Shown in pieces: positions 35,077 through 42,410 of a stretch of 64,000 bases of DNA (its first letter is position 1; every line of letters starts with the position of its first letter). Source of the stretch: Gemmatimonadota bacterium (GTDB lineage Bacteria > Gemmatimonadota > Gemmatimonadetes > Longimicrobiales > Gaopeijiaceae); assembly GCA_016873995.1 (NCBI GenBank), contig VGVR01000018.1, positions 1 through 64,000 on the forward strand. Direction: 5' to 3'. Both the position numbers and the translations under genes were made by a program. The notes under the pieces were generated by a model, which was given only the letters and a program-made list of their open reading frames with translations, was not told where the DNA came from and ran no database searches.

Positions 35077-35207
35077 GCCGTTGGGTCGGTGCGTGGCCTC
35101 GGGGACGGGGCCGGGCTCGAAAAGCTAGCGCGGACCCTTCGGTGGGCAAGCCGAAGCCCCGCGGGCGTCGGGGGACGCTCCGGACGCCACTGCGAGCGGA
35201 GGACCGG

Positions 35208-35723
35208 GTGGGTCACCGAGAAGCCGAGGGGCAGCCTGCGACGGAGACCGCCAGCGGCGCGTCGCTTCGCGCGGTCATGGCCGCGTATCCGACCGGTGTC
35301 ACGATCGTGGCGACGCGCGATCCGGCGGGCGCGCCGCTCGGCCTCACCGTGAATACTTTCACGTCGGTGTCGCTCGACCCGCCACTGGTTCTGATCTGCA
35401 TCGGTCGCTCGAGCGCGTCCCACGATCGCATCATTGCCGCCGGGACGTTCGCGGTGAGCATGCTGTCCGAGGCCCAGGCGGAGCTGTCTCGCCGCTTCGC
35501 CCGTCAGCCTTCGGAGGGTCGCTTCGATGGGGTCGCATGGTGGCAGGCGCCCTCGGGGAATCCGGTGTTGGAAGGCGCCACTGCCTGGATCGACTGCTCG
35601 ATCGACCAAGTGATGGAGGCGGGAGATCACACGATCATCCTGGGACGCGCTCGCTCGTGCGGCGCCACGGATACTCCACCGCTGCTCTTCCATCGCGGTG
35701 CTCTCGCGTCTGTGAGGCCATGA
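35208..35723 (+). CDS. Flavin reductase-like (FMN-binding split barrel) protein
   Basis: The 171-residue protein has the flavin-reductase-like fold (MAAYPTGVTIVATRD, then GLTVNTFTSVSLDPPLVLIC and SMLSEAQAELSRRFA). The GTG start at 35208 has GGAGGA 4 nt upstream. The family reduces FMN or FAD with NAD(P)H for partner monooxygenases. No monooxygenase is adjacent. It overlaps the next gene by 4 nt (ATGA). Confidence 0.85.
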   Translation: MGHREAEGQPATETASGASLRAVMAAYPTGVTIVATRDPAGAPLGLTVNTFTSVSLDPPLVLICIGRSSASHDRIIAAGTFAVSMLSEAQAELSRRFARQPSEGRFDGVAWWQAPSGNPVLEGATAWIDCSIDQVMEAGDHTIILGRARSCGATDTPPLLFHRGALASVRP

Positions 35724-36358
35724 GCCCGACCCCGCCCCGTGGGGTGCGGGCGCCGGCCGCGATGGCGGGCGCTGCTGCCGCGATTGCCGGGGAGGTGGCC
35801 ATCGGCATCCTCCTCTATGCCAGTCCGGGGCTCATGCGGTCGCTCACGACGCTGCTCGCGGTGGAGGGGCTGTCGTTTGCGGCTGGATTGCACACCGCCC
35901 CGTCAGGCAGAGCCGACCTCGTCGATCGCTTGCGGCGTCGCTGGCTCTTCTGTCTCGGCGCGTTCCTGGTCGCGGCTGTCTACGGCACGTTGTGGAGCTT
36001 GTTCGAGAGTCTCGGGGAAGCGCGTATTGGACAGGGGCTGGGGCTGGCCCTGCTGGCGGGTATGCCACTCTTCGCGTGCGGCACCCTACTCGGTGGGATG
36101 AGTGCGATGGCCGAGAGCGACACATCGGGAGTCTTCCCCAAGCCTGGCGCTGCTGCTGCATTCGGAGCTGGCTTGGGCTTCGTGGCGACCGGGCTGCTGT
36201 TGCCGCGCGCGCCAATTCCAGCCTCGTTGCTGGTCGGCTGCCTGATGCTGCTTTCTGGGGGCGGCATGATCTACGGTTCCTTGGTTGACGAGCGGTCGGA
36301 GGGCGGCGGGGAGACCGCCGCCGCGGGCAGCGTGCATACCAATCCTCCGCCGCCGTGA
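35720..36358 (+). CDS. Membrane protein of unknown function
   Basis: The 212-residue protein has about six hydrophobic segments (GEVAIGILLYASPGL, LFCLGAFLVAAVYGTLW, LGLALLAGMPLFACGTLLG, FGAGLGFVATGLLL, LVGCLMLLSGGGMIYG). No family is recognised. The ATG overlaps the flavin reductase stop codon, and its TGA overlaps the GTG of the Mre11-Rad50-like fusion, so it links the two. It could place the fusion near the membrane, but this is only a guess from position. Confidence 0.75.
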   Translation: MSPTPPRGVRAPAAMAGAAAAIAGEVAIGILLYASPGLMRSLTTLLAVEGLSFAAGLHTAPSGRADLVDRLRRRWLFCLGAFLVAAVYGTLWSLFESLGEARIGQGLGLALLAGMPLFACGTLLGGMSAMAESDTSGVFPKPGAAAAFGAGLGFVATGLLLPRAPIPASLLVGCLMLLSGGGMIYGSLVDERSEGGGETAAAGSVHTNPPPP

Positions 36359-38856
36359 TCGTCGCGCACCTGTCGGACCTGCATCTCGGCTTCCGCGCAT
36401 ACGGACGGGTGGAGGCGGGCGCCGATGTGCGCGAGCGGGACGTGGCGGCGGCGTTCGAGCGTGCCACCCAAGAGATCGTTCGCATTCGGCCGGACGTGAT
36501 CGTCATTGCCGGCGATGTCTTCGACCGGCCTGACCCCCCCGCCGGAGCCGTGGTCGCACTCGCCCGCGGCCTCGAGGTGTTTCGAGCATCGCTCCCCGAG
36601 GCGCCCGTTCTCATGGTTGCGGGCCCGCGGGACACGCCGCGACGCGAAGGAGACCCCGGCGCACTGGCGGTGTTCGACAGCTTCCCGAACGTGCAGGCCG
36701 CGACCGGTCTCCCCCGTTCGATTCTCATCGAACGACTCGGGCTGCACGCGGCGCTGCTGCCCCACCGGGCGGTCTCGCTGCACGCGCCTGCAATGCCGGA
36801 GCCGGATCCGCGGATGCGCTGGAACTTGCTCGTCCTGCACGCGGACGAGTCGGCCAAAGGGCATCCGGGCGTGCACGTGAACCCGAGCGAGTGGAGCTAC
36901 GTGGCGCTCGGCGGCGAGCACCGTCGTCGCAAGGTGACGGCGCAGGCGCAGTATTCGGGGTCGCTCGAACGGGTTGCGCTCGACCCGTGGTCTGAGGCCG
37001 CCGACGAGAAAGGCTTCTTGGTCGTCGACCTCCGCTCGGGACGCGTCGCTTTCCACGCAGTGCCGGGCCGGCCCGTGGTCGCTCTGGCGCCCGTGAAGGT
37101 GGGTAGGGGAGAGCCCGAACGGGTCCGCCGACGGGTGCGCGAGGTGACCGCTGAGGTGCCCGGTGGCATCGGCGGCAAGATCGTGCGCCTACGCCTGGAG
37201 GGAGCGTCTCCGGGTGATCTGCTGGCTCTGCAGGGTGAGCCCCTCAAGGAGCTGCGCGCGAGGGCGCTCCACCTCGCAGTCGAGGTGGGTAAGGAGCTGA
37301 AGGTTCCAGCGGAGGCCTGGCTGCCCGTGGAGGTGCCGCGACTGCTTCGGGAGGCCGCCGCAGCCGAGCTCGAGCGCGAAGGCCTCCGGGACGCCGCAGC
37401 CGACGCGCTCCTCGAGCGGTGCATGCCAGACTCCGACGCTGATGTGCCCAGGCCGTTCGGAGGTGCGGAGACGCTCGACGGAGAAGTGTCGGGCTTGGGA
37501 CGTGTCAGCACGTCGATTCCCGTCGGCCTCACTGCCCTCGTGGGAGGCGGTGGCCGTGGCAGGCGGGCCGTCCTGGAGCTGCTCGCGGATGTGGTCGGGC
37601 GCGAAACAACCCCGGCACTGGCGGCCCTGTGGAGGGGTGCCGAGCCCGAGACCCTCGAGGGAGCGCTGCGCCACGCCGTGGATGCGGTTGCCGAGGGCCG
37701 TGGACTGGGCGTGCTTCGGGCGGCGCTCTCCTACCTGGGCTACTCCGAGTCGTCACCGGCGTCGACCCAGCCAACCCCGGTGCGGCCGGCACACCCGCGG
37801 TCGAGCGGAGCGATCCGGGAGGATCCGGAGCTGGTGGCGGCGGAGTTCCGCGCGGCGGAGCGGGAGCTGCGCGAGAGTCGAGCCGATATGGCCGAAGTCG
37901 ATGGGGATCTCGAAGTAGCGACCATGGACTGGCTGCGTGAGCGACAGGATGCGGAGACTACCCTGCAAGCCTATCGGGATCGTGCGCGGGAGTTGCGCGC
38001 CCGCATACGAGACATGGAGTCCACGGGTCCCGGAGCGCCCTGCCCGACCTGCGGGCGGGTGCTCGAGAGTCATTACGATGAGGTGCTGAGCGAGCTGCGC
38101 GACCAATGGGAGTCCGTGGTGCAGGACGGGAGTTGGTGGCGTAGCCGCTGGGAGCAGCTCGAGCTGAAGCCGGCGGCGCTCCAGGAGTTGGAAGGGCGGT
38201 CGCTTCGGCTGCACGCTGCGCTCGAAGCGGGATCCGAACGAGTCGAGTTGCTGCGCGCACGGCTGCAGGAGATCGATCGACCAGCGCTTGCCGTGCGCAC
38301 ACCGCAGTCGGACGCCGAGAGCGCCGTCATTGCCGTGCTCGAGCGCTTACGCGCCGCACGACTCGCGCGAGCTACTGACTTGGTGCTGCAGCGGGCGTCG
38401 CGCTTCGTGTGCCGGATCTCCGGGAGCCGTATCCTTGCCCTGTCATGGGACGGAGAGTCGGTGCGCCTGGAGGGAAGCGAAGGTGCCCTTCGTCCCATGT
38501 CGGAAGAGGACCTGGCTACCGCGAGAATCGCGATTCGCTTGAGCGGCGCGTCGCTCGTCGCCGCGGCGGGGCGCGTGCTCGGGTCGCTGGCGCTCGAGGA
38601 GCCGTTCGATCGACTGGACGAAGAGACGCAGACGCGCGCGTTGCTGCTGGTCCGCGAGCTCCTGGGGGAGATCCCCCGGGTCATCCTCTTCACCCGAGGC
38701 GACGTGACCGACGCGCGCCCCGAGCTCTTCGACTACGTTCTGGAGGTGCGGGAGGAGGAACTGGGGGCGGGGCCTCCGCTGAGGCCAGCACTCGCGGGAC
38801 CCGGTCGGGTGACGTTCGACGTACCGGTAGAACGGAAGTCGACGCGCGTGGGATGA
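36355..38856 (+). CDS. Single-chain Mre11-Rad50-like (SbcD-SbcC-like) fusion with degenerate catalytic motifs
   Basis: The 833-residue protein joins an Mre11/SbcD-type phosphoesterase (residues 1-240) to a short Rad50/SbcC-type ATPase (about 380-800) with a zinc hook. Mre11 motifs I (SDLHLG, 7-12) and II (AGDVFDRP, 52-59) are kept. Motif III GNHD is GPRD (90-93), and motif V GHxH is GGEH (186-189). In the ATPase part, Walker A GPNGAGKS/T appears as GGGGRGRRA (397-405), so the lysine is Arg403. The signature SGGE is SEED, Walker B Asp is Glu748 (LALEEPFDRLDE), and the H-loop His is Arg781. A hook CPTC (563-566) sits between two coiled-coil arms (about 490-680). It starts with GTG 36355, overlapping the membrane-protein stop codon. 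This was seen directly; activity is expected to be lost or altered. Confidence 0.85.
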   Translation: MIVAHLSDLHLGFRAYGRVEAGADVRERDVAAAFERATQEIVRIRPDVIVIAGDVFDRPDPPAGAVVALARGLEVFRASLPEAPVLMVAGPRDTPRREGDPGALAVFDSFPNVQAATGLPRSILIERLGLHAALLPHRAVSLHAPAMPEPDPRMRWNLLVLHADESAKGHPGVHVNPSEWSYVALGGEHRRRKVTAQAQYSGSLERVALDPWSEAADEKGFLVVDLRSGRVAFHAVPGRPVVALAPVKVGRGEPERVRRRVREVTAEVPGGIGGKIVRLRLEGASPGDLLALQGEPLKELRARALHLAVEVGKELKVPAEAWLPVEVPRLLREAAAAELEREGLRDAAADALLERCMPDSDADVPRPFGGAETLDGEVSGLGRVSTSIPVGLTALVGGGGRGRRAVLELLADVVGRETTPALAALWRGAEPETLEGALRHAVDAVAEGRGLGVLRAALSYLGYSESSPASTQPTPVRPAHPRSSGAIREDPELVAAEFRAAERELRESRADMAEVDGDLEVATMDWLRERQDAETTLQAYRDRARELRARIRDMESTGPGAPCPTCGRVLESHYDEVLSELRDQWESVVQDGSWWRSRWEQLELKPAALQELEGRSLRLHAALEAGSERVELLRARLQEIDRPALAVRTPQSDAESAVIAVLERLRAARLARATDLVLQRASRFVCRISGSRILALSWDGESVRLEGSEGALRPMSEEDLATARIAIRLSGASLVAAAGRVLGSLALEEPFDRLDEETQTRALLLVRELLGEIPRVILFTRGDVTDARPELFDYVLEVREEELGAGPPLRPALAGPGRVTFDVPVERKSTRVG

Positions 38857-40088: not shown

Positions 40089-42410
40089 TCAGTCCGCGAG
40101 CACCGACCAGGCCTCGGCGCGCTCTTGATACCGATCGAGCGCAGTTTGGTCGCTGTTCTGTAGCGCGGCCTGGGCGAGGGCGATGTATCCCCATGCGTAA
40201 TAGCTGGGAATGCCGAGGGTCGACCGATCGGGCCAGAAGCCCCACTCGTCGGGGAGGCCGCCACGATGGATGAAGACCTGATCCATCAGCGCCTGGGTCC
40301 GCTGCACGTCCACCCAGTCGCCGGTGACTGGCGCGAATGGGGAGTCGCCCATCCGGACCAGCCCAGATCCCTCCGCGACCGAGAGTGGGCCGTTATTCAG
40401 CTTGAAGGCGAGCCCGTGCCGGACGAGGTAAGGCTGCAGGCCGAGCGACGCGGCCGCATTGCCGCTCGACGCGAAGTAGATGGGGCGCTCGGCGATCGCA
40501 TCGTTGATCAGGTTGAGCGCGAACTGCTGCCAAGGAGAGAGCACTTCGCCCGCACGGAATATCGCCGTGAGCCCGCCCATGGTGAGCTGCATGTCCTGCT
40601 CGATGGGCACGTACTGGCGCGCCACCTGCACGATCTGATCCTCACTCAACGAGATGATCGACCGGGTCGGCGCAACGATGGGTCGTCCCAGCGCCAGAGG
40701 GATCTTGTCGCCCGCCTGAGAAGCATCGGTCACATAGGCTGCGGGCGTGTTCTCCGACGTGTACGGCCTTTGACAGAGGATGAGCGTCGGGTCGCGGGCG
40801 GGGTCCTCGCCGGCCTCACAGGGTTTGGTGAGTCCCTTCAACTGCCGCACGTACCAATCCGTGTTCAGGTACGAGGTCACGATGACCGTCACGTCGCGCC
40901 GGATCCCCTCGACCTCCTGTAGATACCAGAGAGGGAAGGTGTCGTTGTCACCATTCGTGAAGAGCACCGCGTACGGCTCCGCACTCATGAGTAGATTGTA
41001 CGCCCAGTCACGCGCGGCGTAGTCGCGGGCTCGCGACGCGTAGCTCCAGTTGAGCACCAGCGGCAGCAACGCGAGCCCGAGTATCGGTGCGGCTCGCTTC
41101 AGGGTCGTCTTGAGCTCGCGCGCCGCCTCCTGCCAGAGCGTCACGATCCCCATGCCCGCCCAGAGTCCCCACACGGAGAAGCTGACCACGAAGAAGTAGT
41201 CGCGCTCACGCACCTCGTGCAGGCCGCGGTCGGCGGTCGGCGCCTCGAGCGAGTACCCGTAGCGGAAGTTCAGGTAGTAGACGAGCGCCAAAGAAAGCGT
41301 GACGAAGAGCGTGCAGATGTACGCGAAGCTCTTTCGGTCGCGCCGCGCGTGCTCGATCGCGCCCCAGACCCCGAGCCCCGTGAAGAGCATCGTGAACGGG
41401 ATGCGCAGGTTCGCGAAGACGGGATTGTCTCCGCCCAGGCTCCGCGACCACTGCCAGTCGAAGTACTGGAGGTAGTTCGCGATCTGCGACCCCAGCGGCG
41501 CCAAGCGCGGCATCAGGGGCGGCTTGTCGTACTGCGTGCGGTTGAGCGCCTCGGAGAGCGCGACGCAGCCGGCCTTTCCGTAGGTCACGACCGCGGCGAT
41601 CGCCGAGCCGATGTCGGGGCACGTGGGTGCCGCCTCGTTGATGATTGGGCCGAGCCCCGCACGAATGGGCAGGTAGAGGTGGATGGATACTCCGAGGACG
41701 GCTGCCACCACGCTGGCGACGTAGAGCTTCCAGTTGAGCAGGGTCCGCGGGTGGACCAGCAGCACGAAGAGCGCGATCGCGGGCGCGGCGAGGAACGCCA
41801 TGAGGTGGTTGCCCACGCTCAGAGCGAGGATGAACACCATGAGGACGAGCAGTTGGTCGTCCTTGCCCTTGCCCAGGTTCTCTTGCCAGCGCACCGCCAA
41901 CCAGGTGAGCAGCGCGATGGCGATCAGCGAGACCGTGTAGACCTTCTCGTTGACGTTGGACTGGTTCCACACCGTGAACGCGGTAGCGCTCACCAGCACC
42001 GCCACCGCAGCACCCACCAGCCGGAAGGTCCGCTCGGGTGAGAAGCAGCGCAGGATGTGATGGACGACGAGGAACCAGAGCGCGTGCGCGCTCGCGCTCA
42101 CGAACGCGCTGAAGAGGTTGATGCGCACCGCCACCGGAAGCCCGAGCGGCGAGAGCAGCACCGACCATGCCCGGGCGAGTACCACGAAGAGCGGGTTCCC
42201 CGGGGGGTGCGGGATCCCCATGATGTGTCCGGTCGCGATGTACTCGCTCGTATCCCAGAACGCCGTGGTCCGCCCGAGCGTGATCGCGTACAGGGCGAAG
42301 ACCAGCGCTCCCGCAACAGCAGCTTCCTTGTAGGGGGGTCGCAGCTCCCCCGAGCCCTCCGACGGAGCGTCCGCGGCGGGCAATGCCTGGTCGACTGCTG
42401 CTTGGGTCAT
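40089..42410 (-). CDS. DUF2723 integral membrane protein
   Basis: The 773-residue protein has about eleven membrane helices in its first 480 residues and a C-terminal soluble part. The FWDTSEYIATGHIMGIPHPP motif near residue 52 is the hallmark of DUF2723. The fold resembles PMT/GT-C glycosyltransferases, in which the acidic residues of the first loop are catalytic. Its sugar donor and acceptor are unknown; protein glycosylation is a reasonable inference. Confidence 0.88.
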   Translation of the reverse strand: MTQAAVDQALPAADAPSEGSGELRPPYKEAAVAGALVFALYAITLGRTTAFWDTSEYIATGHIMGIPHPPGNPLFVVLARAWSVLLSPLGLPVAVRINLFSAFVSASAHALWFLVVHHILRCFSPERTFRLVGAAVAVLVSATAFTVWNQSNVNEKVYTVSLIAIALLTWLAVRWQENLGKGKDDQLLVLMVFILALSVGNHLMAFLAAPAIALFVLLVHPRTLLNWKLYVASVVAAVLGVSIHLYLPIRAGLGPIINEAAPTCPDIGSAIAAVVTYGKAGCVALSEALNRTQYDKPPLMPRLAPLGSQIANYLQYFDWQWSRSLGGDNPVFANLRIPFTMLFTGLGVWGAIEHARRDRKSFAYICTLFVTLSLALVYYLNFRYGYSLEAPTADRGLHEVRERDYFFVVSFSVWGLWAGMGIVTLWQEAARELKTTLKRAAPILGLALLPLVLNWSYASRARDYAARDWAYNLLMSAEPYAVLFTNGDNDTFPLWYLQEVEGIRRDVTVIVTSYLNTDWYVRQLKGLTKPCEAGEDPARDPTLILCQRPYTSENTPAAYVTDASQAGDKIPLALGRPIVAPTRSIISLSEDQIVQVARQYVPIEQDMQLTMGGLTAIFRAGEVLSPWQQFALNLINDAIAERPIYFASSGNAAASLGLQPYLVRHGLAFKLNNGPLSVAEGSGLVRMGDSPFAPVTGDWVDVQRTQALMDQVFIHRGGLPDEWGFWPDRSTLGIPSYYAWGYIALAQAALQNSDQTALDRYQERAEAWSVLAD

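Follow-up and report, generated by a model that had tools for sequence, protein, structure and literature searches.

The Mre11-Rad50 (SbcD-SbcC) complex is close to universal, and studies normally treat its zinc hook, ATPase and nuclease as a single machine. In Pyrococcus Mre11, the first manganese ion is coordinated by Asp8, His10, Asp49 and His208, and the second by Asp49, Asn84, His173 and His206. His173, His206 and His208 are involved in the nuclease activity (PMC3175470), and the H84Q substitution at the catalytic histidine of E. coli SbcD gives a nuclease-deficient complex (PMC6265447). The hook of human and yeast Rad50 is a constitutive dimerisation module that can be exchanged with an SMC hinge (PMC6969161). 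Proteins that join Mre11 and Rad50 in one chain were reported in 2011 from Mimivirus (R555) and from Deferribacter and Clostridium plasmids (PMC3175470). Zinc-hook proteins also occur outside Rad50, for instance the archaea-specific, SMC-related coalescin and Sph (PMC9389158).

We analysed a 64,000-nucleotide stretch of DNA (the window) from a Gemmatimonadota genome. One gene in the window encodes an 833-residue protein with its SbcD-like and Rad50-like parts in a single open frame, which has a GTG start and no internal stop (Table 1). This start and the stop of the membrane-protein gene upstream share 4 bp (GTGA, 36355-36358), as is typical of translationally coupled genes, which these presumably are. 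Residues 3-93 match the Pfam family Metallophos (PF00149, E 2.9e-6). The NCBIfam SbcD/Mre11 models match the protein at about 1e-10, well below their curated cut-offs; for TIGR00619 it scores 40.1 bits and does not reach the 77.65 bits required. The coil matches the NCBIfam Rad50 models weakly (about 1e-3), and a family profile of the C-terminal part, built from 85 relatives, matches solved Rad50 with an E of 4e-10. An AlphaFold2 model of the whole protein, computed from an alignment of 55 orthologues, has a pLDDT of 87.7 and a pTM of 0.84, and with it Foldseek retrieves Mre11 structures (best E 2.1e-15). Modelled alone, the C-terminal part (pLDDT 89.5) retrieves SMC and Rad50 heads and superimposes on the Rad50 head 3qkt at 3.3-4.4 Å over about 170 columns. 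The profile matches, the predicted model and its structural matches make the identification as a single-chain Mre11-Rad50 homologue secure. A first-pass annotation of this DNA, made from the sequence alone, had proposed the same: an intact frame encoding one chain with an SbcD-like part, Rad50-like parts and a CPTC hook.

Table 1. Features of the locus, in window coordinates; residue numbers are those of the 833-residue protein.
Feature	Position	Strand	Remarks
Flavin reductase (PF01613)	35142..35723	+	also beside intact sbcDC in sister families
Upstream membrane protein	35716..36358	+	stop overlaps start of next gene; presumably coupled
Degenerate single-chain Mre11-Rad50 (SbcD-SbcC) homologue	36355..38856	+	833 aa, GTG start
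Mre11/SbcD-like phosphoesterase domain, residues 1-235	36355..37059	+	D8, H10, D54, H189 kept; N91P, H92R, H187G
Motif III GPRD, residues 90-93	36622..36633	+	GNHD in intact relatives; Arg92 in 84/87 family members
Motif V GGEH, residues 186-189	36910..36921	+	GHYH in intact relatives; second His kept in 83/87
Capping-like region and poorly conserved Mre11/Rad50 linker, residues 236-370	37060..37464	+	
Shortened Rad50 N-lobe, residues 371-460	37465..37734	+	P-loop position GGGGRGRRA, without Walker A Lys or Ser/Thr
Ascending coiled-coil arm, residues 491-560	37825..38034	+	W526, Q531 invariant in family
Zinc hook CPTC, residues 563-566	38041..38052	+	both Cys in 87/87
Descending arm, residues 571-641	38065..38277	+	QDGxWW (590-595), R598, Q601, L602, P606
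Rad50 C-lobe fold, residues 653-821	38311..38817	+	MSEED for SGGE, LEE for LDE, TR for TH
TMEM260-like (PF11028) membrane protein	40089-42410	-	773 aa; conserved downstream neighbour

The same annotation had described nearly all catalytic residues as replaced. The substitutions it listed are there: GPRD (90-93), GGEH (186-189), Arg403 for the Walker A lysine, Glu748 for the Walker B aspartate and Arg781 for the H-loop histidine. The loss stated for the signature Ser-Gly pair is only partly right, as both glycines are gone but the serine is kept. The active sites are indeed lost, but the overall statement went too far, since Asp8, His10, Asp54, Asp93, His162 and His189 are all present in the window's own protein. 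We counted these residues at 87 loci of family f1, the Longimicrobiales family to which the window's own genome belongs. GNH[DE] is intact at none of them; the motif III Asn and the catalytic His are likewise absent throughout, with Arg at the latter position in 84. The first His of GHxH is found at six loci. No locus has the Walker A Lys, the Walker B Asp or the H-loop His, and most lack the signature Gly pair. Loss of the catalytic His, Walker A Lys, Walker B Asp and H-loop His is thus common to all 87 loci, and such conserved substitutions had been named beforehand as support for a new role. They suggest that catalytic activity has been lost. Retention is equally consistent: Asp8 is found at 86 of the loci, His10 at 85, Asp54 at 84 and His189, the second His of GHxH, at 83. 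By alignment with Pyrococcus Mre11, these four are the presumed ligands of metal site 1, and the lost set would correspond to site 2 and the catalytic His. His162 is conserved in only 57% of f1. The hook pair Cys563/Cys566 is retained without exception, as are Trp526, Gln531, Gln590-Asp591-Gly592, Trp594-Trp595 and Pro606.

A comparison with intact relatives shows where constraint has remained. Positions at least 93% identical in those relatives were counted as retained when at least 90% of f1 has the same residue. By this measure the SbcD part retains 33 of 72 such positions and the SbcC part nine of 104, and eight of these nine lie in the hook and its arms (Trp526, Cys563, Cys566, Gly592, Arg598, Gln601, Leu602 and Pro606). 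The descending arm is the most constrained of all Rad50-derived stretches. The mean distance from the Walker A position to the hook is 172 residues in f1 versus 377 in intact relatives, which gives a coil of about half the length. The arms next to the hook (residues 500-625, window 37852-38229) contain W..RERQDAET..YRDRARE and VVQDGxWW..RxEQLxxKP and are unusually conserved for a coiled coil, which suggests a specific function near the hook; this conservation is also seen in intact Gemmatimonadota SbcC. The net charge of the domains gives no clear sign that DNA binding was gained or lost.

Dozens of genera, and most genomes, of f1 carry the degenerate form, and the named relatives are Gemmatimonadota, many of them labelled Longimicrobiales. 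Of the 154 genomes of the order, 121 give a match. About a fifth have none, so the gene is dispensable in some lineages. Among f1 genera without the degenerate protein, G012 (g9) and G015 (g12) have a canonical SbcD well above the cut-off, and the 2 Mb genome G018 (g15) has no SbcD-type match at all. Separate sbcD and sbcC genes, for which the first-pass annotation had recommended a search in related genomes, exist in the sister families and the rest of the class. An adjacent two-gene form (about 400 and 820 residues) was found in families f2 and f3 of the same order and in f4, f5, f6 and f9 of the class, and its motifs are intact in nearly all cases read (GNHD, GHYH, GPNGxGKS/T, CPTC, SGGE, LDE and TH). 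In a tree of the Mre11 part, one branch separates the 87 f1 sequences from all 31 others with a support of 100, the tree being built by a quick method with SH-aLRT support only. Several f1 neighbours also adjoin the intact two-gene form in f2 and f3 (L071, L075, L076, L078 and L079). Because these flanking genes are common to both, the degenerate protein is most simply a vertical orthologue of the class's own SbcDC. We do not favour a horizontal gain of a viral or plasmid-type fusion, given that the neighbourhood is conserved in sister genomes and the tree follows the family.

The f3 genome G054 has two sbcDC copies, L071 on contig 53 in the conserved neighbourhood and L266 on contig 23. In L071 the nuclease is degenerate (GDRD, GHHP) and the ATPase is intact; therefore nuclease loss can precede ATPase loss. 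Its GDRD motif contains the same His-to-Arg change as f1. L266 is largely intact and keeps GNHE, GQNGSGKS, SGGE and LDE. The pair is possibly a snapshot of nuclease loss after duplication. L071 lies on a long branch and may either represent a genuine step on the way to the f1 state or have degenerated in parallel.

The existence of intact homologues had been taken in advance to mean that the window's gene is a damaged copy. Such homologues exist in the sister families, but the degenerate state is family-wide and is under purifying selection. By the NG86 method, dN/dS over 15 pairs is 0.03-0.21 for the whole gene, 0.01-0.10 for the phosphoesterase domain, 0.02-0.28 for the hook segment and up to 0.33 for the Rad50 lobes. 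Several pairs are saturated at synonymous sites, which makes the smallest ratios rough. The phosphoesterase domain has the lowest ratio in most pairs, and third-position changes dominate in all of them. The protein is therefore maintained by purifying selection, as had been supposed from its long open frame, and the heads (the Rad50 lobes) are least constrained. With dN/dS well below 1 and motif loss across the family, we reject a recently damaged copy.

The single-chain fusion, which headed the first-pass annotation, is not the key novelty. One open chain is present at 56 of the 87 f1 loci, and at the other 31 the degenerate protein is encoded by a pair of neighbouring genes or truncated where a contig ends. 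On the Mre11-part tree the single-chain state requires eight changes, at least five of them on starred branches, indicating that the chains were joined or split several times and that fusion was not the defining event. The Mre11-Rad50 fusion in f1 is thus secondary and recurrent, and single-chain forms have been known since 2011 (PMC3175470).

In f1, the gene order is sigma factor, RsgA, ABC importer genes, flavin reductase, a membrane protein with an extra C-terminal domain, and the Mre11-Rad50 homologue, followed by an FAD oxidoreductase, a TMEM260-like protein, a hydantoinase-like and a TrpE-like protein; the last two labels come from reading the sequence. The upstream membrane protein has about 215 residues in the window's genome versus about 480, including the extra C-terminal domain, in many relatives (L044 and L046 were compared), so it has been shortened in the window's genus. 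By eye, the extra domain resembles spermidine-synthase-type methyltransferases; it has no Pfam match. The flavin reductase, earlier proposed as a coupled partner, is rather an old neighbour, since it adjoins the intact two-gene form in sister families too. No common theme was found among the surrounding genes (RsgA, an ABC importer with a periplasmic binding protein, flavin reductase, TMEM260-like and TrpE-like proteins). A functional link through the neighbours was rejected for this reason and because several of them also flank the intact form. A link to NHEJ was rejected as well, as Ku is patchy and the window's own genome gives no match to it.

The intact form in the sister families and the rest of the class, which in several sister genomes occupies the same chromosomal slot, together with family-wide losses in f1 and low dN/dS, indicates that a functional SbcDC was turned into a selected pseudoenzyme. 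A structural role is our best guess for what it does. We propose, at about even confidence, that the protein acts as a scaffold or tether that is dimerised by its zinc hook and works independently of ATP. The gene descends vertically from an ordinary sbcD-sbcC operon with intact catalytic sites. In the ancestor of f1 the complex appears to have lost its ATPase, its catalytic His and metal site 2, its coiled coil was shortened by about half, and the chains were repeatedly joined or split into one or two. Two chains could then pair through a Zn(Cys)4 hook, with ATP-driven engagement of the heads given up. The Mre11-like domains, probably still binding one metal ion, would serve as a folded binding platform, and the assembly may hold two DNA segments or partner proteins together without cutting DNA. 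The behaviour reported for the human and yeast hook (PMC6969161) fits, by analogy, a protein in which the hook is the best conserved of the segments derived from Rad50. Several points speak against a scaffold. With its arms so short, the hook would span only a small distance, and the net charge gives no sign of a surface that binds DNA strongly. The heads also evolve faster than the rest (dN/dS up to 0.33), and some lineages do without the gene. The main facts that it leaves unexplained are the retained site 1 and Arg92, which suggest that the phosphoesterase domain still has a chemical or ligand-specific task.

These facts would be accounted for by a re-purposed mono-metal phosphoesterase, in which a site made of Asp8, His10, Asp54, His189 and Arg92 hydrolyses or binds another phosphoester and the hook and Rad50 remnant are only a dimerisation handle. 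The site-1 ligands and Arg92 are present in 83-86 and 84 of the 87 loci, and the domain has the lowest dN/dS in most pairs. Asp57, Pro59 and Asp60 near the site, like Arg92, are strongly conserved in f1, versus equally conserved His, Val, Arg and His in intact relatives, a pattern that would be expected if the site region has a new role. To our knowledge, however, all Mre11-type enzymes require two metals and the catalytic His. His187 and Asn91 are lost here, His162 is weakly conserved, a few members (L063 and L067) lack some site-1 residues as well, and the neighbourhood points to no substrate. We consider this reading rather unlikely. Distinctly less probable is that the protein joins an active MR-type complex of the same cell as a regulatory subunit or decoy. 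No SbcD in the window's genome passes the curated cut-off, and contig 58 of this genome carries an intact metallophosphoesterase-ATPase pair (G000; L041, 2313-5012 and 4922-6304, minus strand) with GNHD, GHVH, GPNEAGKS and DE motifs on a short contig, which we read as YhaO/YhaN-like. This pair or, where present, canonical SbcCD could be the partner, and many relatives have a second SbcD/YhaO-type nuclease. However, YhaN-type proteins are not known to carry a matching zinc hook, the loci are genetically unlinked, and the pseudo-copy persists alongside differing second nucleases. In the two relatives read in detail, G026 and G030, it occurs together with an intact SbcD, so it is neither simply replaced by the canonical complex nor replacing it.

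Slow decay, in which a gene freed from its old function is heading to loss and is still open because little time has passed, would be in line with the fast-evolving ATPase lobes, the repeated splitting and fusing of the frame and the genera without the gene. We regard it as very unlikely, because the hook Cys pair and several other residues are found in all 87 copies from tens of genera, the whole-gene dN/dS is far below 1 and no copy has a clearly interrupted frame (in L049 the interruption falls on a stretch of unknown bases). The genome is a 3.37 Mb draft in 97 contigs, which could have raised the suspicion that assembly or sequencing joined two genes. This explanation is refuted: a separate assembly (G003) has a single-chain orthologue that is 81% identical, and the open chain recurs across f1, including on contigs of 1.2 and 2.9 Mb (L068 and L069), so it is neither a chance nor an assembly join.

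Beyond the scaffold proposal, we tentatively suggest, with rather less than even confidence, that a repair motor became, lineage-wide, a motor-less zinc-hook protein with a new conserved, Arg-containing single-metal site. It would then be a neofunctionalised pseudoenzyme with a molecular function that no known MR or SMC-like complex carries out. A bacterial family in which both enzymes were apparently removed and the hook and half of the metal site kept would be a natural separation-of-function experiment. It would make it possible to test what a hook and an Mre11 platform can do when neither ATP nor cutting is involved, and how cells cope once the ancestral SbcCD is gone. Such genes should not be annotated as SbcD nucleases.

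In the open-licence literature we found no description of a family-wide catalytically degenerate bacterial Mre11-Rad50. Mre11/Rad50 fusions and zinc hooks outside Rad50 were already known. The term undescribed system, used at first for this locus, is too strong for one protein that is a pseudoenzyme derivative of a known complex. The YhaO-YhaN-type pair also combines a metallophosphoesterase with an SMC-like ATPase, and one occurs in the same genome, but it consists of two genes at a separate locus with intact catalytic motifs, which the f1 protein lacks. Coalescin and Sph share a zinc-hook coiled coil outside Rad50 proper and a suspected structural role on chromosomes, but their Walker A and B motifs are retained, no Mre11 domain is described for them and they are exclusively archaeal (PMC9389158). 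The known fusion proteins likewise place Mre11 N-terminal to Rad50 in one chain. R555, however, has Walker A/B and nearly all nuclease motifs, and these fusions are sporadic and thought to be laterally spread (PMC3175470), whereas the f1 fusion is chromosomal and vertical, in a catalytically degenerate lineage. The closest system is SbcCD/Mre11-Rad50 itself. The f1 protein, as a vertical orthologue of the class's own sbcD-sbcC, has the SbcD-then-SbcC order, the Mre11 fold, the Rad50 lobes and a coiled coil with a CPTC hook. It differs in lacking the catalytic His, metal site 2 and the Walker A, signature, Walker B and H-loop residues, in a coil of about half the length and in often being one chain.
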